Below are positions 3,368 to 30,024 of a stretch of DNA of 37,035 bases, in pieces. Numbering within the stretch: position 1 is the stretch's first letter; the number at the start of each line of letters is the position of its first letter. Below the pieces are notes generated by a model that saw nothing but the letters and a program-made list of their open reading frames with translations, ran no database searches and was not told the DNA's origin. The position numbers and the translations under genes are program-made. This DNA is from a virus, in IMG/VR virus record IMGVR_UViG_3300035182_001720, positions 1 through 37,035 of that record; one strand, given 5' to 3'.

Positions 3368-4342
3368 ATGCTATTCAACGAAGTAAAAGAGAAGCTGCTG
3401 AATACCAAGATTGTGTTGGGCCAGTTGGATCCAAACGGGGTTTGCAACGCTGGCTGTTGGTATTGTCCAGTTCGCTATGAGAAGAATCCCAAAGAATACG
3501 CAGTAACGATGCCTTTGGATCTTCTAGAGCGTGTTCTCCAACAAGTAAGGAATTCCAAATTCGTGGCAGAAAGAATGGATTTCTTCTACACAGCTCACTA
3601 CAATGAGATTCTTCTTTACAAACACTTCGAAGAAATGCTTGGATTGTTTAGAAAGTATGGATTCAAGACGATGGTTCTTTCCAACGGTACACCGCTTGGC
3701 AAGGATAAGATAGATTTGATTGAGCAGAATCGTGATGTCATTCTCGGTGTTTGCCTAAACATTCCAGCTTCCAACGCTACAGATTGGGCCAATTTTTCGG
3801 GCTTCTCTCCTCAAGCATTTGATATCGTAGTAAGAAATGTAGACTACGCTTTTCAAAAACTTGGAGCTGGCGTAAGTATCCAAGTAAATGGCCTTCAAGG
3901 AAATTACAACATTGGACAGTCTCTTGGAAAATCCTTGGTTGCTGGTCGCTTAGAAAATGTTATTGAGCAGGTGAATGGATGGAAAGAATTGATTCCTGGT
4001 ATCAACGCGTATCCTCTTGTTGGTTTGAGTGATAGGGCTGGCTTGCTTAGTGAACTGGATGTTTTAACTCAGAATACTCCTCCATTAGCCTCAGATGAAG
4101 AAGTTCATGGATGCAGCCACTTTATGAATGGTGGAGATAGAATTTCTGGGACTATACATATCAACGCTAGAGGAGATTTGTTTCTTTGCTGCGCAGACTT
4201 TGCCATGGATCATCAGTTCGGCAATCTAGCTGATTCAGAACTAGATGATCTGTGGGCTAGTGACGATCACGTGAACATGATTCTAAATGCTTTCAAAACC
4301 ATCTGCTCAACATGCTCTAGCAGAATAACTCGGAAGAAGTAG
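3368..4342 (+). CDS. Radical SAM protein with SPASM-like C-terminal cysteines
   Basis: This 324-residue protein carries the radical SAM 4Fe-4S motif CxxxCxxC at C26, C30 and C33 (VCNAGCWYC), so it should cleave S-adenosylmethionine to make a 5'-deoxyadenosyl radical. The C-terminal quarter holds further cysteines (GCSHF, FLCCADF, ICSTCSS) in an arrangement like SPASM or twitch auxiliary cluster domains. An AGGAG site lies 5 nt before the ATG at 3368. An overlapping ATG at 3364 is in another frame. The substrate is unknown. Because folE and a dpdA-like gene lie 0.5-3 kb downstream on the same strand, a role in making or further modifying a 7-deazaguanine base is possible, but it is longer than QueE proteins and has extra cysteines, so peptide or other small-molecule modification is equally open. 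Confidence 0.8.
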   Translation: MLFNEVKEKLLNTKIVLGQLDPNGVCNAGCWYCPVRYEKNPKEYAVTMPLDLLERVLQQVRNSKFVAERMDFFYTAHYNEILLYKHFEEMLGLFRKYGFKTMVLSNGTPLGKDKIDLIEQNRDVILGVCLNIPASNATDWANFSGFSPQAFDIVVRNVDYAFQKLGAGVSIQVNGLQGNYNIGQSLGKSLVAGRLENVIEQVNGWKELIPGINAYPLVGLSDRAGLLSELDVLTQNTPPLASDEEVHGCSHFMNGGDRISGTIHINARGDLFLCCADFAMDHQFGNLADSELDDLWASDDHVNMILNAFKTICSTCSSRITRKK

Positions 4343-4374
4343 CATTTTCGCTGGTTAAGTAGTTGAGGGTGCCT

Positions 4375-4608
4375 GTGAAACAGTTTGACGACGTTGGAAA
4401 TGTCCAGAGACTGCCAGAAGATAAACTGCATGAACTTCTAGAAAAGCACTACGATTACACTCGACCAGATATCCGATGCTTTTGTATGAACTGCGAGAGT
4501 GGAAGATTCTGGTGGAAGAATCAGTACAAAATGCCTTTTCCTCAGAGGCCCGATTGGGCTTTCAAATCGCAGAAATTTCGAGAAGCCAACATTGAAGTTC
4601 GCACTTAG
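4375..4608 (+). CDS. Small hypothetical protein with CxCxxC, 77 aa
   Basis: Unrecognised small protein with a CFCMNC cysteine cluster near residue 36 that could bind a metal, followed by an aromatic, basic C-terminal half. I chose the GTG at 4375 because GAGG lies 6 nt before it. In-frame TTG at 4363 and GTG at 4369 have no well-placed ribosome binding site. A GGTTAAGT element starts 22 nt before this start. It sits between the radical SAM gene and folE in the same direction. Confidence 0.55.
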   Translation: MKQFDDVGNVQRLPEDKLHELLEKHYDYTRPDIRCFCMNCESGRFWWKNQYKMPFPQRPDWAFKSQKFREANIEVRT

Positions 4609-4654
4609 AACAAAGTAACTTTTCCAAAGGTTAGCGTCTTTGAAGGACACTAAA

Positions 4655-4855
4655 ATGGATACAGTTTCCGAAGTAACAGTTGTTTTCGTTGGGCCGAATG
4701 ATTTAGGAATTAAATATCATTGGGCTTTTCCTGGGCTCCCTTCCGTTGGAACTTGGGTTAACTTAAATGACGAAGAATACCAAGTGGTCAAGCATCACTG
4801 GAAGAGTCCAACCTATCCTGCCCAGAAGTGGCAGGTTACAATCACTTTGGAGTAG
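4655..4855 (+). CDS. Small hypothetical protein, 66 aa
   Basis: Unrecognised 66-residue protein of beta-rich character (SEVTVVFVG at the N-terminus, WQVTITLE at the C-terminus), perhaps a small SH3- or OB-like fold (inference). The ATG at 4655 is preferred over an in-frame TTG at 4640 because GAAGGA lies 7-8 nt before it. Its TAG stop ends 4 nt before the folE ATG at 4860, and the folE ribosome binding site lies inside its last codons, so the two are probably translated together. Confidence 0.55.
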   Translation: MDTVSEVTVVFVGPNDLGIKYHWAFPGLPSVGTWVNLNDEEYQVVKHHWKSPTYPAQKWQVTITLE

Positions 4856-4859
4856 TGCG

Positions 4860-5537
4860 ATGAATGTAAAGACCGGCAATGACCAATGTGTTCACTCTCT
4901 GATGGATCTTGATGGTAAAGATCTACAGAAGATGATCTTCTTAGAGAAGTTGAACACTAAGGAAGGTCGAGAGGCCATGAAAGGCATCAAGACCTTGCTG
5001 AAGTTCATTGGAGAGGATCCTGAGCGTGAGGGTCTTCTGGACACTCCCAAGCGAGTTGTAAAGGCCATGCTGGAATTGACTCATGGGTTGCATGAGGATC
5101 CGGTTATGGTCCTGGGGACCACATTCAAAGAGGGAATTGACTACGACGAGGTTGTGTTAGTTCGGGACATCGCGTTTACTTCTATTTGCGAACACCACCT
5201 CCTGCCCTTCTCAGGCTTTGCGAGCGTTGGTTATCTCCCGAATCCGAAGCTTGGTGTTGTTGGCCTGTCAAAGTTGGCTCGGCTGGTAGAAATCTTTGCT
5301 CGTCGGCCTCAGGTTCAAGAGCGTCTAACAGTTCAGATCGCCAATGTGATTGAAGAGCACTTGAAGCCTCGTGGTATCATTGTTCGAATTGCCAGTAAGC
5401 ATAGTTGCATGAGCTGCAGAGGAATCAAGAAAGAGGCTGCGGACATGGTTACACAAGTGCTAAGAGGAACATTCAAGAATAAGCCTGCTGCTCGCCAGGA
5501 AGTTTCGGACTTGTTGAGCATTCCTAGATTCCGGTAG
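4860..5537 (+). CDS. folE: GTP cyclohydrolase I
   Basis: Converts GTP to 7,8-dihydroneopterin triphosphate, the first step both of folate synthesis and of the 7-deazaguanine (preQ0) pathway. The 225 residues show the family core: DPEREGL and TPKRV near residues 53-66, the zinc-binding C110-E-H-H113 segment, and the HSCMSCRG segment with H181 and C183. The Cys110/His113 spacing matches the E. coli enzyme, and C183 corresponds to its third zinc ligand. GGAG lies 7 nt before the ATG at 4860. In-frame codons upstream overlap the previous gene and were rejected. In this phage, with a dpdA-like gene one gene away, the product most likely feeds synthesis of a modified deazaguanine base. QueD and QueC are not visible in this window. 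Confidence 0.93.
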   Translation: MNVKTGNDQCVHSLMDLDGKDLQKMIFLEKLNTKEGREAMKGIKTLLKFIGEDPEREGLLDTPKRVVKAMLELTHGLHEDPVMVLGTTFKEGIDYDEVVLVRDIAFTSICEHHLLPFSGFASVGYLPNPKLGVVGLSKLARLVEIFARRPQVQERLTVQIANVIEEHLKPRGIIVRIASKHSCMSCRGIKKEAADMVTQVLRGTFKNKPAARQEVSDLLSIPRFR

Positions 5538-5547
5538 GAGTTAGAAC

Positions 5548-6285
5548 TTGCCACGTAGTATTGGGCAAGCCGGTTTCTTGGAAAGGGCTCATAAAGCTCA
5601 TGGAAATCGATATGATTACTCCAAAGCGGTTTATTCTGGAGCTCAAAAGAAGCTAATAATAATTTGCAGAATTCATGGCGAGTTTTCTCAGACTCCAAAC
5701 AATCACTATTGTACGGATTGTCCTAAGTGTGCTTTAGAAACTAGTCATAGAGCCAAAGCACTAACACAAGAAGAATTCTTGCTTAGGGCTAAAGAAATTC
5801 ATGGTGATTTGTTTGATTATTCACTAACTGTATATGCTTTTTCACAAAACAGAAGAGTTAAAATCATCTGTTCCAAACATGGCATTTTTGAGCAATCTCC
5901 TAAAGCTCACCTACAACAAAAGCAAGGCTGTCCTAAGTGTGCAGCTAGCAAAGGTGAGAAGGCGATAGAGAATTTCTTGATTTCTAAGAACATTCCATTT
6001 GAAACTCAGAAAACATTTGAAAAGTGTAAAGATAAGCGAAAACTTCGATTTGACTTCTGGTTACCTAATTTTAACACGTTGATAGAATTTGACGGCAAGC
6101 AGCATTTTAAACCTGTGGAGTTTTCTAACTGTAGAATTCGAAGCAAACACCATTTCGAAGATACGATTCGAAAAGATGAAATCAAATCACGTTTTTGTTT
6201 GGAATCAAAAATTAAGCTAATTCGAATTGCTTACTTTGAAGATCCAACAAATAAACTTCTGTTAGAGCTGTTGGGAGGCACTTAG
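5548..6285 (+). CDS. Free-standing homing-type endonuclease: duplicated DUF723-like zinc repeats plus Vsr-like nuclease
   Basis: The 245-residue protein has two copies of a module (about residues 10-62 and 76-132), each reading F-L-x-R-A-x-x-x-H-G, then D-Y, then an I-C-x-x-H-G-x-F segment and a final CPKCA. This matches the DUF723-type DNA-binding repeats of phage endonucleases. The C-terminus (about 135-240) has the very-short-patch/restriction-like nuclease pattern: E137, D169 (FDFWLP), E180/D182 (IEFDG) and Q185-H186, followed by K and R residues. It should cut a DNA site and promote its own spread. It sits between folE and the dpdA-like gene and is visibly more AT-rich, suggesting insertion. 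The TTG start at 5548 is supported by AGGAG 7 nt upstream. Its stop touches the next ATG. Confidence 0.78.
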   Translation: MPRSIGQAGFLERAHKAHGNRYDYSKAVYSGAQKKLIIICRIHGEFSQTPNNHYCTDCPKCALETSHRAKALTQEEFLLRAKEIHGDLFDYSLTVYAFSQNRRVKIICSKHGIFEQSPKAHLQQKQGCPKCAASKGEKAIENFLISKNIPFETQKTFEKCKDKRKLRFDFWLPNFNTLIEFDGKQHFKPVEFSNCRIRSKHHFEDTIRKDEIKSRFCLESKIKLIRIAYFEDPTNKLLLELLGGT

Positions 6286-7947
6286 ATGTTTTCATGGATT
6301 CCTAGCGGTGCATTGAAAGAGTATTTGACTTTCAACATTTGGATTAAGCCAAAAGCTCAAGCCAAGCAGTTTGAGATGCTCTCGTTTAGCTCTGAGAAAG
6401 TGGATGAACCCAATCCAACTCGTCCAGGGGCAATGCAGAAAACAACAATCATTCATGCTCCCCATGCTGACATCATTTTTGACAATCAGCGGCGGACTGC
6501 TACTGATAGATCAGCTGATGGCTATCACTTAGTGAAAGTTGGACCTTACGAAGAGGGCAGCATCCTTCAAGGCAAGTTAGAGTGGGTTATGGCGTCAGCC
6601 CATTATCTTAATCCGGAGCAGGGTAACTTTGCAAACAAAGCTGGTTTGAAGATGATCGCAGATTCAGGTGGTGCGCAGATGAAGAAGCGCACTGCTAACT
6701 TCGTTGATCCTCATCATGTCATTGAAACTTACAACGCTTGTGCAGATTACGGAATGTCATTGGACGTTCCTCCCAGGTTTGATGTAGACGGTCAGAACAA
6801 GAAAGCTTTGGAAATCCTAGCGCTTGTTCAGAAAAAGAACAACGAGATCTTTAAAGCTAAACGGCGTCCTGATCTTGGTCTTCTTAATGTTGTTCATGGT
6901 GTCACTAGCAATGATATTCGTCGTTGGGCTGAAATCGTAAACGATCCTACCCACTTCCAAGGTTGGGCGGTCGGATCAGATTCTTCAACGAATCCAGAAT
7001 CAGTTTATAAGGCTGCTTCCATCCTTTATCGTGAGTTTGGAATCAAAGAGAACCAACAGTGGCTACACTTGTTTGGCGTGTCCGGTCCTAGAAGTATCCC
7101 AGTGATGGCTTGGTTGGGGCGTTATATTCCCTGCTTGACTTCAGACTCCAGTTCGTATCTTGAAGGTGCTCGTCGTCGGACCTACTTTACCACTTTCGGT
7201 GGAGCAGTTCGTTCGATTGGGACAAGTGCAGACCTGCGGACAAAGAACTTTGGCGATTCCCCTTGGAACAACGAATCCCTCCTCCCTTGCTCTTGTGAAT
7301 TCTGCACGCTGATGAAATACTTCGGGACGATTGGAATGTCTCGAGAAGCACCACAGAGTTACCCAGCTATCATTGGGCACGATCTCTTGGCTTTGCGGCA
7401 TGCAGCTAATGAATGGAATGCTTTGGCCGCTACTTTGGATCTCAAGCAATACACCAAGCTGGTTTCAAAGAATGTCAGTCCTGAAAGTGCCCTCTACTGT
7501 GAGTATGTGGAATCTCTGGTTCAAGATGGTGTGGACTATGCAGATAAGCACTACAGCCGGTTCCTGAATGCTTCCGGTGCTCTTCACGGAGATGCGGTGA
7601 TGTCCAGGACCAACAAGCAGATGACTCGCATTCCATTGTTCGCAATCAATACAGCGGAGAAGAAGGAAGAGGGCTTGATCGGTGGATTGAGCGTTGAAGG
7701 ATCAAACCTTGAACTAATTCCCAACTACCTAGACGATACAGAGCTTCATGACATTCTGGTTCAGTTTGGCTTTGACATGGTGATTGAGGATAGACTAAAG
7801 GCAGCAAGAGCCAAGTTCACCCCACTCCCACAAGGAACTGAAGCAGAGTTTGAAGCTGAAGTTGATGCAGAGCCTCCAACAACTGTAGTAGAAACACCTG
7901 TTCAGGCTGTGGACCCCGCTCCGATTGCGCCCACTTCAGAAGTGTAA
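6286..7947 (+). CDS. dpdA: DpdA-like DNA guanine transglycosylase
   Basis: Member of the tRNA-guanine transglycosylase superfamily. Phage DpdA proteins exchange guanine in DNA for a 7-deazaguanine base, which shields phage DNA from restriction enzymes. In the 553 residues one sees the DSGG motif at 126-129 (active-site Asp126), a second candidate catalytic Asp at 287 in an SDSSS context, and the family zinc motif CxCxxC at C335, C337, C340 with a following His (H365 or H372). The last 45 residues are an acidic, Pro/Thr-rich tail. GGAGG lies 7 nt before the ATG and the upstream stop abuts it. A tRNA-modifying TGT is the alternative, but the phage setting, the length and the linked folE favour DNA. 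Confidence 0.82.
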   Translation: MFSWIPSGALKEYLTFNIWIKPKAQAKQFEMLSFSSEKVDEPNPTRPGAMQKTTIIHAPHADIIFDNQRRTATDRSADGYHLVKVGPYEEGSILQGKLEWVMASAHYLNPEQGNFANKAGLKMIADSGGAQMKKRTANFVDPHHVIETYNACADYGMSLDVPPRFDVDGQNKKALEILALVQKKNNEIFKAKRRPDLGLLNVVHGVTSNDIRRWAEIVNDPTHFQGWAVGSDSSTNPESVYKAASILYREFGIKENQQWLHLFGVSGPRSIPVMAWLGRYIPCLTSDSSSYLEGARRRTYFTTFGGAVRSIGTSADLRTKNFGDSPWNNESLLPCSCEFCTLMKYFGTIGMSREAPQSYPAIIGHDLLALRHAANEWNALAATLDLKQYTKLVSKNVSPESALYCEYVESLVQDGVDYADKHYSRFLNASGALHGDAVMSRTNKQMTRIPLFAINTAEKKEEGLIGGLSVEGSNLELIPNYLDDTELHDILVQFGFDMVIEDRLKAARAKFTPLPQGTEAEFEAEVDAEPPTTVVETPVQAVDPAPIAPTSEV

Positions 7948-7959
7948 GGTTAGCACCAC

Positions 7960-8601
7960 ATGGCGATCAATGATGCAAAGGCGGCGAAATCGCCCTATGA
8001 GAAGTTCCTTCTAAGCCACAGGATTCCAAGACAGTTTTGGAAGTATGGTGTGGCTAGTCTGGAATTCGTTCCATACACTATCGGTCGCAAGATTGATGGG
8101 CACAAAAAGCTGAAAGAGATTTTAGCAGTTTCTGCAGAAGATCAGCAGTCGTATTGGCAAGGGCTGACGGATTACGTTGGCAAGTGGCAACCCGATAGCG
8201 CTGATTCTCCTGCAGAACAGTTTGTGGTGTTTTGTTGCGAAGATGAAAAGACTGCTCAGCATTGCCTTTTTACCCTCGCTCACTACATGCTGCAAGGTTT
8301 GTATCGTCGGACATCTAGGTATCGGCTAGTGACTCAGAGAAATTACGAGCTCTGGAAATTGTTGCAGTCTGAAGAAGCTCTAGATCTGCCCAATGTAGTA
8401 TTGATTCCCTCCATCATGTCTGAGATTACGAACGCTCAGTATGCTACGCTAAGGGAAATGTTTACTCTTTCGTTTAGAATCTTTGCAGCCACTTCATTGA
8501 GTCCTCAGGAATTCTTCGAGCGGTTTAACTACTTACCGACGATGATGTTCTACGTGGAGTCAATTAAAACCTCTTTTGATGTTCAAAAGACGTTTGGCTA
8601 G
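7960..8601 (+). CDS. Hypothetical protein, possible degenerate DnaC-like helicase loader
   Basis: 213 residues, not firmly recognised. The layout resembles DnaC-type AAA+ helicase loaders: a basic N-terminus with an RIPRQFW segment (about 21-27), a FVVFCC hydrophobic strand where a P-loop would follow (about 85-97), a DLPNVVLIPS strand at a Walker B-like position, and RIFAATSLSP like the sensor-1 strand of loaders. But the Walker A Gly-Lys-Thr is absent (EDEKTAQ in its place), so ATP binding would be lost. It is the nearest + strand gene before the DnaB-like helicase, separated only by the minus-strand GIY-YIG cassette. The ATG is preceded by AAGG and GGTTAG. The 3' end overlaps the convergent GIY-YIG gene by 42 bp. 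The loader call is inference. Confidence 0.5.
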   Translation: MAINDAKAAKSPYEKFLLSHRIPRQFWKYGVASLEFVPYTIGRKIDGHKKLKEILAVSAEDQQSYWQGLTDYVGKWQPDSADSPAEQFVVFCCEDEKTAQHCLFTLAHYMLQGLYRRTSRYRLVTQRNYELWKLLQSEEALDLPNVVLIPSIMSEITNAQYATLREMFTLSFRIFAATSLSPQEFFERFNYLPTMMFYVESIKTSFDVQKTFG

Positions 8602-9252
8602 ACTCAATTTTTCTCTAGTTTCTTGAGAAACTATTTTTCCTCTTTGGGAGTCTCCAATTTTTCGTTTATGCTCTTCAGAGTATTTACGACCCTTTAAGGC
8701 ATTAGCTTGTTTTTCTCTAGATTCTCGGGATTGGTTTTTACTGGCTATGCTAATCTTTTTCCTTGTTTCTTCAGAAATAGTCTTTTTTCGGCATTTTTCT
8801 CTAGTTTCTTCAGAAACAACTTTATTTCTATGCTTTTCTCTAGTTTCTTCAGAAACAACTCTATTCTTTGCTGCTAAACTCATTTTAAGCTTAGTTTCCT
8901 CCGACTTTGGCTTTCTTAATCTAGCTTTTGTCTCTTCTGAATGTCTTCTAATAGCTTTACCATTCTCAAATGTAATTAGTGTACTATCGTATCCAGAATG
9001 GTACGAGTTTAGCTTAGCTTGCCAAAAAGACTCTAGCTCGACTAATCTAGATTCTTCACACTCTTGAAGGATGTTCCATTCCCAGACATCGGGGCCATAC
9101 TTGTTCCAAGCCCGCTGCAGCTTAATTGAGTGGTGGTTTAAATGCCTCAAATTTTTATTATGTTGCTTCCAACGATTTCTAATGTCGATAGAACTTCCAA
9201 CATAACACTTATCTGTAACCGTGTTCAAAATCTGATAAATGCCACAGGTCAT
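8560..9252 (-). CDS. GIY-YIG homing endonuclease with NUMOD-like repeats (copy 1)
   Basis: 230-residue free-standing GIY-YIG endonuclease. The N-terminal catalytic domain shows CGIYQI (3-8), CYVGSS (16-21), and a basic helix with Arg. The long core segment HHSIKLQRAWNKYGPDVW followed by EWNILQECEES is shared almost word for word with two paralogues at 15467 and 23703. The C-terminal half is a run of short basic repeats built on SEETREK and SEEHKRK, typical of NUMOD3-type DNA-binding modules. It lies antisense between the loader-like gene and dnaB, and its 3' end overlaps the former by 42 bp. Its ATG overlaps the stop of a 53-codon HTH gene (ATGA), so its translation is probably coupled to that gene. 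Confidence 0.9.
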   Translation of the reverse strand: MTCGIYQILNTVTDKCYVGSSIDIRNRWKQHNKNLRHLNHHSIKLQRAWNKYGPDVWEWNILQECEESRLVELESFWQAKLNSYHSGYDSTLITFENGKAIRRHSEETKARLRKPKSEETKLKMSLAAKNRVVSEETREKHRNKVVSEETREKCRKKTISEETRKKISIASKNQSRESREKQANALKGRKYSEEHKRKIGDSQRGKIVSQETREKLSLAKRLLNIKRGFN

Positions 9253-15466: not shown

Positions 15467-16165
15467 ATGACTTGCGGAATATATCAGATTTTCAATAGAG
15501 TTACTGGAAAGAGCTACGTAGGCAAATCTATAAATATAGAGGGCAAACGTTGGAAAACGCATAGAGAGCTATTGCATACAAAAAAGCATCATTCTATCAA
15601 ACTCCAACGGGCTTGGAATAAGTATGGTCCAGATGTGTGGGAATGGAATATTCTCCAAGAATGTGAAGAAAGCAAGTTAGATTGGCTAGAAGTTTTCTGG
15701 CAAGGAAAATTAGATTCATATCATAAAGGATATGACAGCACTCTTCTAGCTCTAGAAAATGATAAAGTAATTAAAAAGTTGTCCATTGAACAGAAGAGGC
15801 AGATTGGAAATCGTAATGCTGGAAGAAAGTGGTCTGAGCAAGAAAGATTAAACCGTAGTGGGCGCAAAACATCTTTAGAAACTAAAGCCAAACTAAGCTC
15901 AGCGCTTAGAGGAAGAGTATTTTCAGAAGAGCATAAACAGAAACTTAGAGGAAGGGCATTTTCAGAAGAGCATAAACAGAAACTTAGAGGAAGAGTATTT
16001 TCAAAAGAGCATAAACAGAAACTTAGTGAGGCCACTAAAGGAAGAAAACTATCGGAAGAGCATAAGAGAAAACTTGGTGAAGCTCGAAAAGGGAAAGTTT
16101 TGTCTGAAGAACAGAAGCAAAGAATTAAAGATGGTTTAGCTGCAAAGAAATTTTGTAAGTCCTAG
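15467..16165 (+). CDS. GIY-YIG homing endonuclease with tandem C-terminal repeats (copy 2)
   Basis: 232-residue paralogue of the enzymes at 8560 and 23703. It shows CGIYQIFN (3-10), the SYVGKS segment (18-23), and the same RAWNKYGPDVWEWNILQE core. The C-terminal half contains tandem 13-residue units GRVFSEEHKQKLR (three close copies encoded by a 39-bp direct repeat at 15911-16027) and a further degenerate GRKLSEEHKRKL, likely NUMOD3-type DNA-binding units. It stands alone on the + strand inside the GC-rich minus-strand block and is clearly AT-richer, so it is an insertion. Its end overlaps the convergent 84-aa gene by 4 bp. Confidence 0.9.
   Translation: MTCGIYQIFNRVTGKSYVGKSINIEGKRWKTHRELLHTKKHHSIKLQRAWNKYGPDVWEWNILQECEESKLDWLEVFWQGKLDSYHKGYDSTLLALENDKVIKKLSIEQKRQIGNRNAGRKWSEQERLNRSGRKTSLETKAKLSSALRGRVFSEEHKQKLRGRAFSEEHKQKLRGRVFSKEHKQKLSEATKGRKLSEEHKRKLGEARKGKVLSEEQKQRIKDGLAAKKFCKS
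15911..16027 (+). repeat. Three tandem 39-bp repeats inside GIY-YIG gene
   Basis: Units at 15911-15949, 15950-15988 and 15989-16027 each encode one 13-residue GR[VA]FS[EK]EHKQKL[RS] module. They are nearly identical at the DNA level, which implies recent duplication. Confidence 0.85.
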
Positions 16166-20109: not shown

Positions 20110-20661
20110 TTATTGCTGAGTCACGCTCTTTCGCTTATCCAGCTCGATATCCAGTTGTTTGAGAGAATCGTGAAGCAGAGGCTGATCCTTCAAGTAGCTT
20201 CGCACCATCTGCTTGGTGGTCTCTTCGCTGATCCTGGCCAGAGCGAAAACGTTGCCCGTCTGCTGATCCCTCCAGTAGTGGGGAACCTGAATTCCCTTCA
20301 ACTGAACGCTAACCAGATTCCGAATGACCTGGAGGGATTCCTGATTGGCGGCGGCGTTGACCTTCTTGCCATTGCCCGTCACGTTGTTCGCGGTAGCCTC
20401 GGCGAACATCGCTTCCACGTTGGCCTGAACCTTGACGGCAAGGGCGGCAAAGGCACGATTAGAGGCCTGAGTTCGCTGGAAGGAAATGTCACCCAGCGGA
20501 TTGGGAGCAGCAACACCAACAGCCGTGATGAAGCCAGCCTGCTCGGAATTGTCAACCCACTCCGGCTGGGTTGGATTCTTCGTCGTCGTGGCCAAGGTCT
20601 TCGGCTTGCCGCAGCCAATGAAGGTGGCGATGAGGATGAGGGAAAGTAGTGCGCTGCGCAT
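20110..20661 (-). CDS. LPP20-like lipoprotein
   Basis: 183 residues. The N-terminus is a lipoprotein signal: MRSALLSLILIATFIGC with a lipobox ending at C17, followed by GKPK. So it is probably exported and lipidated, then anchored in a membrane. The mature part resembles LPP20 lipoproteins: PEWV, GFITAVGVA, and a helix of alternating Ala (FQRTQASNRAFAALAVKVQ). It lies directly after a second LPP20-like gene that has no signal peptide. A lipoprotein in a phage early-type block could alter the host envelope or block superinfection (inference). Confidence 0.7.
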   Translation of the reverse strand: MRSALLSLILIATFIGCGKPKTLATTTKNPTQPEWVDNSEQAGFITAVGVAAPNPLGDISFQRTQASNRAFAALAVKVQANVEAMFAEATANNVTGNGKKVNAAANQESLQVIRNLVSVQLKGIQVPHYWRDQQTGNVFALARISEETTKQMVRSYLKDQPLLHDSLKQLDIELDKRKSVTQQ

Positions 20662-20670
20662 GGTAACCTC

Positions 20671-21270
20671 CTAGGGTAAGCGCGAGATTTGAGAGGAGTG
20701 CCTCTCTACCGTTACTGAAGGTCTTGAAACTGGTGCAGTCTGTCGTTTTAGCTCGTGGTATTCAATCTCATAAAGGTAGACTGAAACTCCCAAGTTACGG
20801 GCTTTGTTTAGCATGGAGGCCACACTAGAAGCCTTATCTTCGAAAGCTCTAGAACCCGGTCGCAGGTATCTCATCTCCTCTAAAGTGAAACTGAGATGAT
20901 TGAAGAAATACGTTTGAAGAACAATTCTGTCCAGCTGAATTAAGCAGTAAGTGGTGCCACCCAGAACTTCCATCTTCTTAACTGAAATGCCTGGGATGTC
21001 TGATAGGTAGGATGAAATCTCTACTTCGCTATCAGTTTTTGTTTCATCTTTGTACTTACCGAAGAATGTAGATCGATGCTCAGTACTTCTAGATTCTGTT
21101 TGTACTGAATCTACCGTTACGAAAATGCGAGAAGATAGATCCTGAAGGGCCTTCAATTTGGCCTTATCAATAGCCTCGGGGCCTTTTCCACTCGATACTC
21201 CCACACCATAATAATAGAGGGGAGTATTCTGTGGAGGCTCTGAAACCCAAGCTGGAAGATCCATCAACAT
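20671..21270 (-). CDS. LPP20-like protein without signal peptide
   Basis: 199 residues. The N-terminus PAWVSEPP, YYYGVGVSSGKG and AKLKALQDLSSRIFVTV follow the LPP20-like pattern (W-V, G-V-G, a regular amphipathic helix) seen in the next gene. There is no hydrophobic leader, so it may stay in the cytoplasm, or be part of a two-protein unit with the lipoprotein. The C-terminal region (about 135-199) is a different, helical and Ser-rich tail. Its ATG overlaps the TAA of the zinc-ribbon gene by one base (TAATG). The family call rests on pattern only. Confidence 0.6.
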   Translation of the reverse strand: MLMDLPAWVSEPPQNTPLYYYGVGVSSGKGPEAIDKAKLKALQDLSSRIFVTVDSVQTESRSTEHRSTFFGKYKDETKTDSEVEISSYLSDIPGISVKKMEVLGGTTYCLIQLDRIVLQTYFFNHLSFTLEEMRYLRPGSRAFEDKASSVASMLNKARNLGVSVYLYEIEYHELKRQTAPVSRPSVTVERHSSQISRLP

Positions 21271-23702: not shown

Positions 23703-24248
23703 ATGGCTTGCGGAATTTATCAAATTCTGAATATAGCTACTGGAAAGTGCTATGTTGGGAAATCTAGAAATTTGGATTCACGTCGCTATGATCATTTTCA
23801 TGATTTAAAATCGAATAACCACCATTCCATTAAGCTACAACGAGCTTGGAATAAGTATGGTCCTGATGTTTGGGAATGGAATATCCTCCAAGAATGTGAA
23901 GAAAGCCAACTTACATGGTTGGAAGCTTTTTGGATGGCTAAACTTAATTCTGTGAATAATGGATACAATGTAGAACGACTAGTTTTGGAAGATGGGGTTA
24001 TTCGTAGAAGAACTCTAAGAACAGCTCCAGTTTCTTCAGAAACTCGAAAAAAACTAAGTGCTGCTGGCAAAGGCCGAGACATAACTTGGGGTGACAAGAT
24101 TAGCGCCGCTAAACAAGGCAAGCCCCAATCAGATGAGCATAAGAAGAAAACTGGAGATATTCACCGGGGAATGAAGTTTTCTGTAGAAGCTCGAGCTAGA
24201 ATGAGTGAGGCTCAGAAACTTCGTAGAGAAAGAAGTAAGGTTCTCTAA
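23703..24248 (+). CDS. GIY-YIG homing endonuclease (copy 3, short)
   Basis: 181-residue paralogue of the enzymes at 8560 and 15467. CGIYQILN (3-10), CYVGKS (18-23) and the shared RAWNKYGPDVWEWNILQE core are all present. The C-terminal repeat region is shorter (SSETRKKLS, SDEHKKKTG), with fewer DNA-binding modules. It sits between the 259-aa gene and the glycosyltransferase gene without disturbing either, as expected of a free-standing homing gene. No clear GGAGG precedes its ATG. Confidence 0.9.
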   Translation: MACGIYQILNIATGKCYVGKSRNLDSRRYDHFHDLKSNNHHSIKLQRAWNKYGPDVWEWNILQECEESQLTWLEAFWMAKLNSVNNGYNVERLVLEDGVIRRRTLRTAPVSSETRKKLSAAGKGRDITWGDKISAAKQGKPQSDEHKKKTGDIHRGMKFSVEARARMSEAQKLRRERSKVL

Positions 24249-25556
24249 ATGGAAACGATTTTCGTTACGATAGCGTCCTACCGAGATTGTGAACTTCGAT
24301 TAACGCTTAAAGACGCGTTTGCCAAAGCAAAGCATCCAGAACGCTTAACATTTGGCATTTGTTGGCAGCGGGACGAAGACGAATACTTGGGCACTTTTGT
24401 AACTCACCCTCAGATTAGATTGACTTCTTTTCCACATAAAGAATCGAAGGGTGCTTGCTGGGCTCGCAAGAAGACCCAGGATCTTTATAATGGTGAAGAT
24501 TTCTGGTTACAGATTGATTCCCATACCAGATTTATTCAGGATTGGGATGAAGTACTGATCGAGGAATTTCGTAAGTGTGAAGATCCAAAAGCCCTCTTGT
24601 CTACGTATCCTAAGGGCTACAAGATTGACTTCTTCTCCGGTGAAGTTACTCTGGAAGAAGACAATAACACACTGAAATTGACTTGCACCAAGATTCATCC
24701 AGATTATTTCATTCTTCAGACTTCTGCCCATGTTTCTAATTTGAAGAAGCCTGGGAAAAGCAGATTTATTGCGGGTGGCTTAATCTTTGGTACTGGATCG
24801 TTGATAGTTGATGTGCCTTACGATCCAAATTACTATTTCCTTGGAGAAGAGATAAGCTATGCTATCCGAGCCTATACGCATGGCTATAATCTCTACTACC
24901 CGTCCAGAAATATAGTCTTTCATCATTATCGTGGTGTTGGAGATTCCGGTCCACAGGGTCAGGCTTGGAAAGATCAGAAAGAATGGGGAAAGCAGCACGA
25001 AATTTCTCAGCAGCGATTCAAGGCTCTTGTGGTCGATAGAGATTTTAGCAGTCTTGGAATCTATGGGCCTGGAAGCGTTAGAACAATTGAAGATTATGAA
25101 GCGTATTCTGGGCTCAATTTTAGAACTCGTGATGTTCATCCAGATGCCATCAGTGGCAAGGATCCTGATCCAATAACGGTTAAAGATCCAAATTGGGTGA
25201 ATTATATACAAGCTCTACAATTGAATCTAGAAGATGTTAAAAATTTCTTTGAACCAGAGGAAATTGTATTCTGGTGCACAGCAATCTTTGATGAAAACGG
25301 TCGCCAGATTTTACGACACGACATTAAAGAATCCACAGTTTTAACTGGTGATTGTAAAAGTATTTGGATTCAATACTTTTCTCATAGGCGTGCTGTAGAG
25401 CTTATGGTTTGGCCTTACTACAAGAAGGGTGGGTTCAGAAAGAAGGTTTGGACGAAGATTCCTGAGTCCTGGTGGCGTCAAAGAATACCAGCAGGAGATT
25501 TAGAGGGAGCGTATGACGGTGATGACTCGATGGGGTACTGGCATAAAACTATGTAA
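24249..25556 (+). CDS. GnT1-like (GlcNAc-type) glycosyltransferase
   Basis: 435 residues. The N-terminal about 290 residues match the GlcNAc-transferase family that includes Skp1 GnT1 (Pfam PF11397 type): IFVTIASYRDCELRLTL at the start, FGICWQRDED, then KGACWARKKTQDLY, QIDSHTRF with D90-S91-H92 (DxH form of the metal-binding DxD), AGGLIFGTGS and LGEEISYAIRAYTHG (E200-E201). It should transfer a sugar from a nucleotide donor to a protein hydroxyl, in the cytoplasm. The C-terminal about 130 residues are an extra domain I do not recognise. The next genes encode two Ser/Thr-rich repeat proteins, the obvious candidate substrates (inference). Confidence 0.82.
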   Translation: METIFVTIASYRDCELRLTLKDAFAKAKHPERLTFGICWQRDEDEYLGTFVTHPQIRLTSFPHKESKGACWARKKTQDLYNGEDFWLQIDSHTRFIQDWDEVLIEEFRKCEDPKALLSTYPKGYKIDFFSGEVTLEEDNNTLKLTCTKIHPDYFILQTSAHVSNLKKPGKSRFIAGGLIFGTGSLIVDVPYDPNYYFLGEEISYAIRAYTHGYNLYYPSRNIVFHHYRGVGDSGPQGQAWKDQKEWGKQHEISQQRFKALVVDRDFSSLGIYGPGSVRTIEDYEAYSGLNFRTRDVHPDAISGKDPDPITVKDPNWVNYIQALQLNLEDVKNFFEPEEIVFWCTAIFDENGRQILRHDIKESTVLTGDCKSIWIQYFSHRRAVELMVWPYYKKGGFRKKVWTKIPESWWRQRIPAGDLEGAYDGDDSMGYWHKTM

Positions 25557-25568
25557 TTTGATTTGTTG

Positions 25569-25577
25569 GGTTAGAAT
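25569..25577 (+). promoter_or_regulatory. GGTTAnnnT element (TAGAAT core)
   Basis: GGTTAGAAT, 27 nt before the ATG of the first mucin-like gene, in the context TTGGGTTAGAATAGG. A GAGG ribosome binding site follows. Confidence 0.5.
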
Positions 25578-25595
25578 AGGTAGTGTGAGGTTAAC

Positions 25596-26948
25596 ATGTA
25601 TCATCTAAACGCTGGAGAATTCGTTGTTCAAGCGCCTCAGGCGGCGATTGACCTCCACGAGTTCAGTGTATACCCACAGTTTATTCTGTCTCTCCAGTAC
25701 TTGGCACTTGATGTTTCTACCAATCCAGTGACGGTACAGCTGCTAGATTCGAATACTGGAAATACTGTGGCCTCATTTAATTTCCCAGCCACCGTAGCTG
25801 AAACTTCATTGGTGGTTAGGCACATCAAAGTATCGTTGGTATCCGAAGTTCCTAAGCGCCTGCAGTTGAAGATTATTGCTCCAAGTGATGCTGGAGTTGA
25901 TATTAACGCAGTTTCATTTGTTCCTGGCGACGTGATTCCTGAGTTCATTCCAGAGTATTTAGTTTCTGATTCAGAACTTCGTAACTCTTTTGCATTCCAG
26001 GAAGCGAGACTGGCGGCATTTAATGCCAGCTACAACCCTAGTAATGCTGAAGTTGTTTTAGATTCTAATCCCTACATTCTAAGCGGCGGCATTGCTACTT
26101 ACGATCCCGCTACCAATAGTTTTGTTTTCAACATTCCTGGAATTTATGAAATTTCAGCAGTAATCGATGGTCTTAATGTACCACCAACTACAACTGGAAC
26201 GCCAGTACCACCAACTACGACTGGAACGGGCACACCCCCTCCAGTGGGTTCCATTTATTTTGATGTTGCTAATGGAACAAGTCTTAACTTCACAGTTGGT
26301 ACACCTGTAAATAGAACTTTCAAGGCACTGGGTGGCATAGCTCCTTATGCTTCTGCTACTGCTCCAAATCCCATCGGCGGCCCAGAAACTTTGGCTTCAG
26401 TAGGATTGACACTTAGCTTCTCAGGTGATACATTTACCCTAAGTGGAACGCCAACTGCTACATTTGGAACTGGATCTTGGAATACCTCTTGGTCAACTAA
26501 CGTAAGCACATCGGTGTCTAAAAATACTTCTTGGTCCACTAGTAAATCGACATCAGTAGCTACTAGCACATCTTGGTCAACTAGCATATCGACTACAACA
26601 TCTTGGAATACCACTAGATCGACTACAACATCTTGGAACACGACAAATGGTTCTTCATGGCAAACCAGCCATAGCACCAATCAGTCGACAACAACCACTT
26701 GGAATACAAGTCGGTCGACAACAACCACTTGGAATACTTCAGGATCAACTACTACATCTTGGAGTACCCAAGCCAGCACAACAACTTCTTGGTCTACTAG
26801 CGGTAATACTTCAATTTCTAAAACGACCACTTGGACTACCAACAAATCTACTACAACTAGTTGGACTACATCTTACTCCACAACGACGACTTGGTCAACT
26901 TCTGGAACGACAACCTGGAATACTACCTGGACTACAACCAACCCATAA
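25596..26948 (+). CDS. Mucin-like virion or tail protein with Ser/Thr/Trp repeats
   Basis: 450 residues. The first about 200 form beta-rich structure of unknown type. Then a short Pro/Thr hinge (VPPTTTGTPVPPTTTGTG) leads to a domain with an Ig-like putative pattern (FTLSGTPTATF, as in He_PIG repeats). From S294 to the C-terminus the chain is a low-complexity array of about 16 copies of [ST]-W-[NST]-T at a spacing of about ten residues, for example STTTSWNT. It contains hardly any charged residue. Such a stretch resembles a mucin and would be a good O-glycosylation substrate. The glycosyltransferase gene lies just upstream. Probably an adhesion or tail-fibre protein (inference). Confidence 0.75.
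   Translation: MYHLNAGEFVVQAPQAAIDLHEFSVYPQFILSLQYLALDVSTNPVTVQLLDSNTGNTVASFNFPATVAETSLVVRHIKVSLVSEVPKRLQLKIIAPSDAGVDINAVSFVPGDVIPEFIPEYLVSDSELRNSFAFQEARLAAFNASYNPSNAEVVLDSNPYILSGGIATYDPATNSFVFNIPGIYEISAVIDGLNVPPTTTGTPVPPTTTGTGTPPPVGSIYFDVANGTSLNFTVGTPVNRTFKALGGIAPYASATAPNPIGGPETLASVGLTLSFSGDTFTLSGTPTATFGTGSWNTSWSTNVSTSVSKNTSWSTSKSTSVATSTSWSTSISTTTSWNTTRSTTTSWNTTNGSSWQTSHSTNQSTTTTWNTSRSTTTTWNTSGSTTTSWSTQASTTTSWSTSGNTSISKTTTWTTNKSTTTSWTTSYSTTTTWSTSGTTTWNTTWTTTNP
26475..26945 (+). repeat. Degenerate 30-bp coding repeat array (Ser/Thr/Trp units)
   Basis: About 16 units around TCTTGGAATAC or ACTTGGAATAC, spaced mostly 30 bp apart. Sequence drift between units is mild. A related array is at 27440-27895. 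Confidence 0.8.
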
Positions 26949-27040
26949 AGGAGCATTAGATGTCCAAAACGGTAAAGGTGAAGTAATTGGATTTGTGAAT
27001 TACATGCAGTTTGGTGGATCTAAGATAACGCGAGGGATTT
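26949..27040 (+). other. Spacer with orphan start site
   Basis: 92 bp between the two mucin-like genes. AAAGGAG lies 6 nt before an ATG at 26960, yet that frame holds only 8 codons. Another frame here is open for about 45 codons and reads like protein, but has no ordinary start. A lost start or a shifted frame is possible. Confidence 0.4.
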
Positions 27041-27994
27041 ATGCCAGTAGGGACAGGGGATTATACAGTAGATGGATTTTATGCTAGTCTGCTTGGTAGT
27101 ATCAAGGTAGTTAACGGACAGACTCAGCAGCTCCATGCTAAAAACTTCTATGGTTGGGCGTCCCCAAGTGAGTATGAGATAAGGAACTTTTACGGCTCTG
27201 GCACTATCCAAGATAATGGGGTTGAAGTAGGTAATTACTCTATCCAGGGTGGAACTTATAGTCAGGAGGTTAGCTTCGCAACGCCAACATATACACCAAC
27301 GGGTGTTGGTGTTCATAATATTAGTTTGGATTGGACTTCACAAGCAGATTTTTATGATCCAACTCAGCAGCAACCTTCTTATCATGATAGTGGATCGGGA
27401 TCTTTATCCACCACTTACGAGCTAATCACCAATCAAAGAAGCACAACAATTTCAACATCAATTACTACCTCTTGGAATACTAGTGTAAGCACAACGACAT
27501 CTTGGAATACTACAGTACCTTTTACAACTTCTTGGAATACTCAGGCCAGTACAACTACCACTTGGAATACGACGTGGGCCACTCAGATTAGTACAACTAC
27601 AACATGGGCCACTTCGGTTACAACAACTACAAATTGGAACACTTCAGTCAGCACTACAACGAGTTGGAGCACTTCGGGTTCTACAACTACAACTTGGACA
27701 ACGTCGTATCCAACCTCAGTTTCAACTTCTTGGGCGACTTCAGTAACTACCACGACTACCTGGGCGACTTCAGCTTCAACTTCAACTTCTTGGACTACAA
27801 CAGTTGCTGGCTCAACAACCTGGACCACCTCTTGGAATACGACAGTTAGCACCAACTCCACCTGGACTACTTCATGGACTACAACGATTACAACTTCTGG
27901 TGGAGTTATAAAGCAGCTTGGCTTGGCGGTAACTGATTCAGTTGGCACACCAATGAGCGAAGTTTATCAATACCCAATCGTGATTGTTAACTAG
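27041..27994 (+). CDS. Second mucin-like Ser/Thr/Trp repeat protein
   Basis: 317 residues. The first about 135 are a beta-rich domain with many Tyr, Gly and Asn (YTVDGFYASLLGS, YEIRNFYGSG), unrelated by eye to the start of the previous protein. Residues 138-285 are again an array of about 16 [ST]-W-[NAST]-T units, such as STTTSWNT and STTTTWAT. The last 30 residues (GLAVTDSVGTPMSEV) form a capping piece. GAGGG lies 4 nt before the ATG. An in-frame TAA lies 12 nt upstream, which fixes the start. The 3' end overlaps the convergent hemerythrin-like gene by 8 bp. Confidence 0.75.
   Translation: MPVGTGDYTVDGFYASLLGSIKVVNGQTQQLHAKNFYGWASPSEYEIRNFYGSGTIQDNGVEVGNYSIQGGTYSQEVSFATPTYTPTGVGVHNISLDWTSQADFYDPTQQQPSYHDSGSGSLSTTYELITNQRSTTISTSITTSWNTSVSTTTSWNTTVPFTTSWNTQASTTTTWNTTWATQISTTTTWATSVTTTTNWNTSVSTTTSWSTSGSTTTTWTTSYPTSVSTSWATSVTTTTTWATSASTSTSWTTTVAGSTTWTTSWNTTVSTNSTWTTSWTTTITTSGGVIKQLGLAVTDSVGTPMSEVYQYPIVIVN
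27440..27895 (+). repeat. Second degenerate Ser/Thr/Trp coding repeat array
   Basis: About 16 units with TCTTGGAATAC or ACTTGGGC cores at roughly 30-bp spacing, mirroring the array at 26475. Confidence 0.78.
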
Positions 27995-28440: not shown

Positions 28441-30024
28441 TTAGAAGGCCATCCAAGCTGTTCCGCTGTAAACCAAAGTCCAAGCCTGATACTGAGCAGT
28501 AAGGGTGATGCTGGACAAGCCATCAATGTTCTTACCGTTGCCACTAACCGTAATTGCATTGGCTGTGGAGTCGATCTTCTTGAAGCTGTGCTTTTCACCC
28601 GTTACAGGACTAGCGGGAAGGGTGAATGCGAATGGTGCTGTGGTCGCATCACCAAGCAGGAAGTTGTCGGTTCCTACAACGCTGTATGCTGAGCTCTTGG
28701 TAGCGATCGCTTCTACTGGAGCAGCAACTGCAGCTTCTACGAACGCTGTGGTCGCAACCTGAGTGGTATTTGTTCCAAACGCTGCAGTGGGAGCTGTAGG
28801 AGTTCCCGTCAGGGCAGGAGAAGCCAAAGGAGCTGCGCCTGAAACATCAGCCACTACCAAAGCCAACAGGGTCTTGATCTGAGCCACTGTGAGGTCAGTA
28901 GCATTGGCGGTTGAACCTGTGTTGTTGCCCTTGATGGTGTTTGCAGGCATCTGAGCCAAGACTGTGTTTGTTACGGAATTCGCAACGTAAGCCGCAGTCA
29001 AGGTCGTTGTACCTGAACCGGAAAGGACGCCGGCCAAGGTGATTGTCTGGTTAGAAGTCAGATAAGACTGAGCCTTGACGAAAGCTGTTGTCGCAATAGT
29101 TGTGCTATTATCTGAAGTCGACGCAGTGGGAGCTGTAGGAGTTCCCGTCAGGGCAGGAGAAGCCAAAGGAGCTGCGCCTGAAACATCGGCTACTGTTAAT
29201 GTTACCGCTCCAACCCGTCCAGCTACTGAAACCACGTCGGAAGTGCCACCCTGAACCTGATCCCACACGGTGCCATCGAACAGGATCAAATCGCCAACGG
29301 TCCAATTTGCATTGCCGTCAATCGAAGTTGTTCCAGCCGTGGAAACCTTATAGAAGTAGCCCTTCGTGCCCACACCTGAAGCCAGAGCAGGAACGTTTGT
29401 TGCTGCGTTCCAGGTCCCCTGATACTGAAGGGAGCCTGTGATGGCGGCTGGCAACTGAGCGAGGGGAACCTTTCCACCAGCATCCAAAGTAGCCACACCA
29501 TTGTTGGCGCCGAGGAGTGAACTGTTGACGGCATCTGTGATTCCATAGCCAGTCAACGTTGTCGGCTTGTCAGTCACGTTGCTAAATGCAGGTGTAATCG
29601 TTACCGCTGAACCAGTAGCAGTAATACGACCCTTTGCATCCACTGTGAAGGGCATCACAGCCGTTGCTGAATTGTTATAGGTTCCAGCCGTAACACCGCT
29701 GGCTCCTAATGTCACTGTAATGTCAGTTGTACCGGAACCTGATGCATCTCCAGAAAGGGTGATTGTCTGGTTAGCGGTCAAGTAGGCAACTGTGCTACCA
29801 GAAGTAACACGACCTTTGGCGTCTACTGTCACGTTGTTGTAAGAACCAGCCGTAACGCCCGAATTCGACAACACCATTGAGGACTGTGTGCCTGTTACAT
29901 CTCCCGCAAAGGTCTGGGCCTTTACGAAAGCCGTGGTAGCCAGCTGGGTGCTATTGTCAGTAGTAGCGGCTGTCGGCCCCGTTGGAATGCCAGTAAATGC
30001 TGGGGAGTTAAGAAGATGGGACAT
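28441..30024 (-). CDS. Tail-fibre-like structural protein
   Basis: 527 residues, rich in Ala, Thr, Gly, Ser and Val, without Cys. It contains repeats typical of phage tail fibres and collars: SPAFTGIPTGPTA near the start and two copies of ASPALTGTPTAPTA, each followed by a T-x-x-A-T-T-A-F-V motif (TTAFVKAQ and TTAFVEAA). It also has VDAKGRV/VDAKGRI units and GYGITDAV, as in fibre shafts. The C-terminus (YSGTAWMAF) resembles a trimer-forming tip. It would bind the host surface. AAGGAG lies 7 nt before the ATG. The 65-bp exact repeat inside it is described separately. Confidence 0.88.
   Translation of the reverse strand: MSHLLNSPAFTGIPTGPTAATTDNSTQLATTAFVKAQTFAGDVTGTQSSMVLSNSGVTAGSYNNVTVDAKGRVTSGSTVAYLTANQTITLSGDASGSGTTDITVTLGASGVTAGTYNNSATAVMPFTVDAKGRITATGSAVTITPAFSNVTDKPTTLTGYGITDAVNSSLLGANNGVATLDAGGKVPLAQLPAAITGSLQYQGTWNAATNVPALASGVGTKGYFYKVSTAGTTSIDGNANWTVGDLILFDGTVWDQVQGGTSDVVSVAGRVGAVTLTVADVSGAAPLASPALTGTPTAPTASTSDNSTTIATTAFVKAQSYLTSNQTITLAGVLSGSGTTTLTAAYVANSVTNTVLAQMPANTIKGNNTGSTANATDLTVAQIKTLLALVVADVSGAAPLASPALTGTPTAPTAAFGTNTTQVATTAFVEAAVAAPVEAIATKSSAYSVVGTDNFLLGDATTAPFAFTLPASPVTGEKHSFKKIDSTANAITVSGNGKNIDGLSSITLTAQYQAWTLVYSGTAWMAF
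28784..28848 (-). repeat. 65-bp perfect direct repeat in tail-fibre gene (copy 1)
   Basis: Identical to 29123-29187, 339 bp away (113 codons, so in frame). It encodes the VADVSGAAPLASPALTGTPT segment and the start of the next. Confidence 0.9.
29123..29187 (-). repeat. 65-bp perfect direct repeat in tail-fibre gene (copy 2)
   Basis: Second copy of the 65-bp repeat at 28784-28848. Recombination between the copies would remove 113 codons and keep the frame. Confidence 0.9.

Follow-up and report, generated by a model that had tools for sequence, protein, structure and literature searches.

The window analysed here is the whole of IMG/VR virus record IMGVR_UViG_3300035182_001720 (37,035 bases), which most likely covers only part of the genome of a larger phage; by DNA similarity it matched none of the phage records searched. 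It carries a gene for a predicted glycosyltransferase (GT) of the N-acetylglucosamine (GlcNAc) type, followed directly by genes for two proteins built on Ser/Thr/Trp repeats. The three genes are contiguous and co-directional, with gaps of 39 bp and then 92 bp, and purine-rich, plausible Shine-Dalgarno sites lie ahead of the ATG of both repeat genes. This gene order, described by a first-pass annotation of the sequence, is confirmed; the annotation's proposal that the phage glycosylates its own fibre-like proteins is supported in part. The features of the locus are listed below (HexNAc, N-acetylhexosamine; Ig, immunoglobulin; aa, amino acids).

24249–25556 (+): PF11397 / GT60-like glycosyltransferase, 435 aa, predicted protein O-HexNAc transferase (Pfam, PHROG, AlphaFold2, Foldseek)
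24516–24524 (+): DSH (DxH) metal-binding motif, residues 90–92, invariant in 28 phage PF11397 proteins
24843–24851 (+): GEE motif (xED-type), residues 199–201, invariant in the same 28 proteins
24921–24923 (+): His225, candidate C-His metal ligand, invariant in the same 28 proteins
25596–26948 (+): repeat protein 1, 450 aa, with an N-terminal part, Thr/Pro linker, Ig-like stretch and C-terminal repeat
26181–26249 (+): Thr/Pro-rich linker of repeat protein 1, 23 residues, PPTTTGTPVPPTTTGTGTPPPVG
26247–26474 (+): putative Ig-like stretch of repeat protein 1 (GLTLS...GTPT-like), seen by eye and not confirmed by Pfam
26460–26945 (+): repeat region of protein 1, 16 [ST]Wx[ST] motifs, Trp–Trp gaps all even
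27041–27994 (+): repeat protein 2, 317 aa, with a central repeat
27455–27892 (+): repeat region of protein 2 (residues 139–284), 15 [ST]Wx[ST] motifs, Trp–Trp gaps all even
Candidate acceptor peptides for the predicted GT: STTTSWNTSVSTTTSWNTS; TPTVTPTNTVTPT

Family, fold and motifs of the glycosyltransferase

The GT matches Pfam PF11397, ‘Glycosyltransferase (GlcNAc)’, which we take to correspond to CAZy family GT60, with an E-value of 1.6e-68 (232 bits against a cut-off of 21) over profile positions 1–43 and 96–350 of 352, and it matches PHROG family phrog_24687 with an E-value of 6e-69. Its identity to the phage relatives found is at most 39%, reached by the closest of them (locus L003; loci in other phages are given by L numbers). 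An AlphaFold2 model built from 28 phage sequences had a mean predicted local distance difference test score (pLDDT) of 79.6, with a confident N-terminal catalytic part, and when this model was compared with the PDB using Foldseek, the best 50 matches were all polypeptide N-acetylgalactosamine (GalNAc)-transferases (E 5.9e-13 to 1e-9), placing it in a GT-A fold close to these enzymes, which initiate mucin O-glycosylation. Searches for solved structures by single sequence and by profile returned chance matches only. Profile search and structure prediction were among the checks proposed at the outset, and they support a glycosyltransferase of the PF11397 (GlcNAc) family.

Enzymes of families GT27 and GT60 carry DxH in place of DxD, the C-His of GT27 binds metal, and GT60, GT27 and GT7 share one clade (PMC7185993). 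The DSH, GEE and His225 residues of the window GT would be the structural equivalents of the corresponding GT27 residues. With the GT27 polypeptide GalNAc-transferases it has in common the best solved fold matches, DSH and the conserved distal His; it differs from them in identity (~15% over the Foldseek alignment) and in that Pfam recognised no lectin domain. With the GT60 polypeptide alpha-GlcNAc transferases, such as Dictyostelium DdGnt2, Trypanosoma cruzi TcOGNT-2 and Skp1 GnT1, it shares PF11397 and the DxH motif. Characterised GT60 enzymes place alpha-GlcNAc on Thr/Ser and so initiate mucin-type O-glycosylation in Dictyostelium and Trypanosoma cruzi (PMC8724618, PMC3188802, PMC3769586), in line with the earlier statement that GnT1-type relatives modify protein. 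Unlike these enzymes, the window GT is a phage gene product, has no apparent targeting segment and is predicted to act in the bacterial cytoplasm. Because of the family match, the GalNAc-transferase fold, the conserved motifs and the GT60 literature, protein Ser/Thr transferase activity is expected; judged by its family, the enzyme would use Ser/Thr (or hydroxyproline) in proteins as acceptor for alpha-GlcNAc.

Modification of host surface glycans is a common role of phage-encoded glycosyltransferases, and this enzyme might likewise alter the host cell surface, leading to receptor change or superinfection exclusion. We regard this as highly improbable, since inspection by eye showed neither a membrane segment nor a lipid-carrier-type domain and the nearest folds are those of polypeptide transferases. 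The host-surface role is also mentioned in PMC12619734.

Trp-repeat proteins in the window and in other phages

The repeat of protein 1 makes up its C-terminal 162 residues and consists of 66% Ser+Thr and 10% Trp, with six K/R and no D/E, while that of protein 2 is 66% Ser+Thr and 11% Trp, with no D/E/K/R; the near absence of charged residues noted at first is therefore complete in protein 2 and broken by the six basic residues in protein 1. About 16 motifs at ten-residue spacing had been described for each protein. The motif numbers are close to this (16 and 15) and ten is the commonest gap, but it is exact in only 16 of 29 cases, the remainder being 4, 8, 12, 14 or 20, and none 5 or 15. Across both regions all 30 Trp–Trp gaps are even. 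A run of four TGGNNNAC units spaced 30 bases apart was counted five times in the window and in none of 100 dinucleotide shuffles. Third codon positions in the repeats are diverse (~1.8 bits) while the encoded Thr and Trp are kept; it is therefore the protein pattern, not the DNA, that is maintained, and judged by these codons the pattern is under selection.

By composition, the description of the proteins as mucin-like is apt, as both regions are long tandem repeats with 66% Ser+Thr. They are not proline-rich in the manner of Pro/Thr/Ser mucin domains (Pro 0.6% and 1.4% of the repeat regions), Thr/Pro richness being confined to the 23-residue linker, and the strictly even spacing of Trp speaks for a chain that is extended and held in register, not for the random coil of a mucin. 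Such a register would be expected if the chain ran as an extended strand whose Trp side chains all faced the same way. Scans of both proteins against Pfam and PHROG gave no match, and tblastn searches of phages and IMG/VR with the N-terminal segment of this first protein found no relatives. An AlphaFold2 model of repeat protein 1 (pLDDT 35) was uninformative and was discarded.

Further Trp-repeat proteins were sought in other phages, with the family defined here by [ST]WxT motifs, even Trp–Trp gaps, a modal spacing of 10 and Ser/Thr above 40%, all of which apply to the window proteins. About 23 of 119 viral pattern matches were genuine Trp-repeat proteins, the longest reaching 1,700 residues. 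In these, 723 of 739 Trp–Trp gaps are even; the corresponding figure for the remaining proteins encoded at these loci is 96 of 207. In several T4-like contigs the Trp-repeat gene lies directly upstream of a phrog_26179 gene, with a terminase nearby; in Caulobacter phage Cr30 a phrog_26179 homologue precedes two neck proteins. No such protein was present among the first 116 pattern matches listed for bacterial and archaeal genomes (with a stricter five-unit pattern), and tblastn found no isolate relative of the L037-type protein. The Trp-repeat proteins are a separate, apparently phage-restricted family, and glycosylation aside, these even-register Trp/Ser/Thr repeats constitute a protein class for which no Pfam family was found here.

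Modification enzymes are encoded at some of these loci: DUF4422, a DegT aminotransferase, an epimerase and GT2/GT92 at L068, GT29 at L037, and methyltransferases at L072 and L078. Only 1 of 17 Trp-repeat contigs contained the GT2_4 family, and sugar enzymes beside Trp-repeat genes are therefore occasional. Possibly, Trp-repeat proteins are modified by different enzymes in different phages. As a separate observation, methyltransferase-like genes lie between two Trp-repeat genes in L029, L038 and L078 and beside one in L072 and L128. In two further Trp-repeat proteins (L051 3020–6652 and L069 5042–6748) the C-terminus apparently consists of a Hint/intein-like segment (CVVEGTEVNIST... LTHN), assigned by eye, which suggests self-processing.

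These data also bear on the idea that the Trp-repeat proteins carry no glycans and are beta-structured fibres or adhesins, with Trp/Thr ladders along one face of extended strands that bind surface glycans or stack to form a fibre, and that the adjacent GT is unrelated to them. The near-universal even register in the window and in other phages, the position upstream of the neck-linked phrog_26179 gene and the occurrence of Trp-repeat proteins in contigs that lack PF11397 are all in keeping with it. Against it, modification enzymes do occur at some Trp-repeat loci, the structure prediction was uninformative, and a beta fold and glycosylation are compatible. We consider this account somewhat unlikely; it overlaps with the other alternatives discussed, as these do with one another.

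Ser/Thr-rich neighbours of PF11397 enzymes and predicted acceptors

A profile-type search yielded at least 588 phage relatives of PF11397, of which 80 loci were retained after removal of near-duplicates. At many PF11397 loci, Ser/Thr-rich genes with TPTVTPT or TPSITPS-type (Thr-Pro, TP) repeats lie close by. A Ser/Thr-rich gene stands immediately upstream of the GT in 22 of the 80 loci versus 10.6 expected, and within two genes upstream in 30 versus 15.3 expected (0/5000 permutations each), while downstream of the GT there was no excess. As the position of the GT was shuffled inside each locus, the permutation partly controls for the GT merely sitting in a tail module. PF11397 was present in 13 of 50 and 9 of 28 TP-repeat contigs versus 2 of 22 unrelated contigs, a small sample (p about 0.09; 0.0009 only when Trp-repeat contigs were pooled in). 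The TP and Trp classes have a two-residue alternation in common: in TP-repeat proteins from IMG/VR (65 loci within L224–L343), 1680 of 1746 Pro–Pro gaps are even.

Among 50,697 phage records the enzyme matched only three, XacN1, RAS14 and CM1, and TPxTPxTP repeats were found in all three versus none of seven comparators, among them several jumbo phages; RAS14 and CM1 are closely related, so that these amount to about two independent isolate cases. Like the window, XacN1 encodes a PF11397 relative (ORF334, 29% identity). It has more than 12 TP-repeat genes of the TPTVTPT type, some of them beside structural genes (ORF369–372 adjoining the genes for tail sheath and sheath stabiliser, ORF350 near head completion), and proteomic analysis of XacN1 reported glycoproteins (PMC5852040). 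Unlike the window, its repeats are of the TP and not the Trp kind, its enzyme gene lies apart from them and it has a second GT (ORF328). The gene directly after its PF11397 gene encodes a carbamoyltransferase (ORF333; L013 9412–11709), which could decorate the same glycan.

Further glycan enzymes accompany PF11397. In L003, a GT7 galactosyltransferase gene lies directly downstream of the GT, and GT7 scored above cut-off in 7 of 50 PF11397 contigs versus 0 of 50 comparators (Fisher p 0.012). A single 799-residue open reading frame (ORF) in L375 (593–2989) starts with PF11397 sequence and continues with a GT7-like WGWGxEDND-type stretch and a third GT-like segment, the latter two assigned by eye from the sequence. 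Extra epimerase, methyltransferase and GT25 genes are present at L005 and L004. The added GTs fit a step-wise building of glycan on a protein-linked first sugar.

Taken together, we lean slightly towards a reading in which the phage's repeat proteins receive HexNAc on Ser/Thr from its own enzyme while still in the host cytoplasm, prior to assembly. The family, the GT27-like fold and motifs, the Ser/Thr-rich neighbours of related enzymes and XacN1 all speak for it. The phage-encoded enzyme would be soluble and cytoplasmic, a PF11397 (GT60-like) polypeptide O-N-acetylhexosaminyltransferase that during infection probably draws uridine diphosphate (UDP)-GlcNAc from the host cytoplasm. The first HexNAc would then probably be placed on Ser/Thr of the Ser/Thr-rich, fibre-like virion proteins of the phage ahead of their assembly. 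In the window genome the likeliest acceptors would be the two adjacent Trp-repeat proteins, in which an even-register Trp/Thr chain may present hydroxyls at regular positions along an extended strand. Further phage GTs, such as GT7, may lengthen the sugar in relatives. Both proteins would be part of the virion, where the sugar may serve adhesion, shielding or protease resistance.

Several points weigh against this reading. Co-occurrence of the enzyme with W-repeat proteins, the lack of which in related phages the first-pass annotation had named as refuting its proposal, did not emerge: PF11397 was found in 0 of 23 Trp-repeat contigs, and the Trp repeat (three WxT units at ten-residue spacing) in 0 of 62 PF11397 contigs or genomes, although contigs are fragments, so that absence is weak evidence. 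Gene calls were mechanical and match lists were capped. Linkage was instead with TP-type mucin-like proteins. In the relatives the Ser/Thr-rich gene lies upstream of the GT, in the window downstream, and the Ser/Thr thresholds used for the upstream counts (0.40 and 0.35, with enrichment at both) were set after a first sight of the data. A split of the TP-repeat contigs by TP density (13/50 versus 9/28) did not separate GT carriers and was not used as evidence. For XacN1, the accessible part of the text names neither the glycosylated proteins nor which of the two GTs is responsible, and draws no link between the glycoproteins and the repeat proteins (PMC5852040). Finally, the glycan, donor and acceptor of the predicted enzyme are ones that we infer.

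The same absence of a recurring PF11397/Trp-repeat pair in the phages examined would suit a protein O-glycosyltransferase that acts on other virion proteins, such as the tail fibre or mucin-like proteins encoded outside the 37 kb, with the Trp-repeat genes adjacent by coincidence. The pairing of related enzymes with TP-type repeats, the short length of the record and the adjoining tail fibre gene are likewise consistent with such targets. Against them stand the three contiguous, co-directional genes with their short gaps, and the finding that the two downstream products have the highest Ser/Thr content among the ORFs read in the fragment. On this evidence we judge other targets to be unlikely.

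A broader proposal, extending our favoured reading, is that many large environmental phages have a mucin-type O-glycosylation of their own, with a GT60/GT27-like initiator, sometimes a GT7 extender (in one case fused into a multi-GT protein), and arrays of mucin-like proteins on the virion, with even-register Trp-repeat proteins as a second acceptor class beside TPTVTPT; this we offer tentatively. As the enzyme recurs together with mucin-like repeat proteins in related phages, a mucin-type sugar coat on the particles of some phages is probable. In common with the known GT60 systems, many of these phage genomes encode Ser/Thr-rich, acceptor-like proteins near the enzyme. If the proposal is true, the mucin-type protein O-glycosylation of animals and protists would extend to the viruses of bacteria, where enzyme and acceptor would share a genome and the reaction would take place in the bacterial cytoplasm. 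The phage would gain a sugar coat for adhesion to mucus, gels or host glycans and for shielding against proteases and antibodies; compact enzymes would become available for mucin-type glycoprotein production in bacteria, and the origin of GT60/GT27 enzymes would become testable.

The general idea is not new, as glycosylation of phage virions by phage GTs is already established. In mycobacteriophages Che8, Corndog and Myrna, phage-encoded GTs glycosylate virion proteins (PMC12363180 and PMC11256854, citing Freeman 2023). Their acceptors are capsid and tail-tube proteins, unlike the repeat proteins proposed here, and tblastn found no match to the window enzyme in these three phages at E 1e-3. 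The earlier impression that no such phage system had been described is therefore too broad in view of these phages and of the XacN1 glycoproteins. In the open-access papers searched, we found no description of phages that combine a PF11397 enzyme and mucin-like acceptors.

Neighbouring genes in the window

The three-gene group is flanked by the following two genes.

23703–24248 (+): GIY-YIG homing endonuclease, directly 5′ of the GT (PF01541 E 4e-9, phrog_314 E 7e-29)
28441–30024 (−): tail fibre-like protein, encoded convergently to the repeat genes (best E 5e-27 among matches to PHROG tail fiber families)

The tail fibre-like gene marks a structural neighbourhood, and it is the only structural context seen near the window repeat genes. 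The stop codon of the GIY-YIG gene abuts the GT start, and the gene is probably a mobile passenger. Three GIY-YIG endonuclease-like genes are present in the window (8560–9252 (−), 15467–16165 (+) and 23703–24248 (+)), with a nearly identical N-terminal stretch (HHSIKLQRAWNKYGPDVWEWNILQECEES) and diverged C-termini.

Positions 3368–7947 hold what is probably a gene set for 7-deazaguanine modification of DNA, encoding a radical SAM/SPASM enzyme, a divergent TGT/ArcTGT-like protein and GTP cyclohydrolase I (FolE). DNA is a frequent substrate of phage GTs, and the presence of these genes in the same fragment raises the alternative that the GT glycosylates modified DNA. This we hold to be very unlikely: the set is 16–20 kb distant, FolE was found in only 6 of 50 PF11397 contigs, the nearest folds are polypeptide transferases and the family adjoins Ser/Thr-rich, structural-type genes. 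Hypermodification of DNA by virus GTs is known (cited in PMC12619734).

For the SPASM enzyme, weak matches to maturases that modify peptides were obtained as well. Two LPP20-like lipoprotein genes lie in tandem at 20110–21270 (−).

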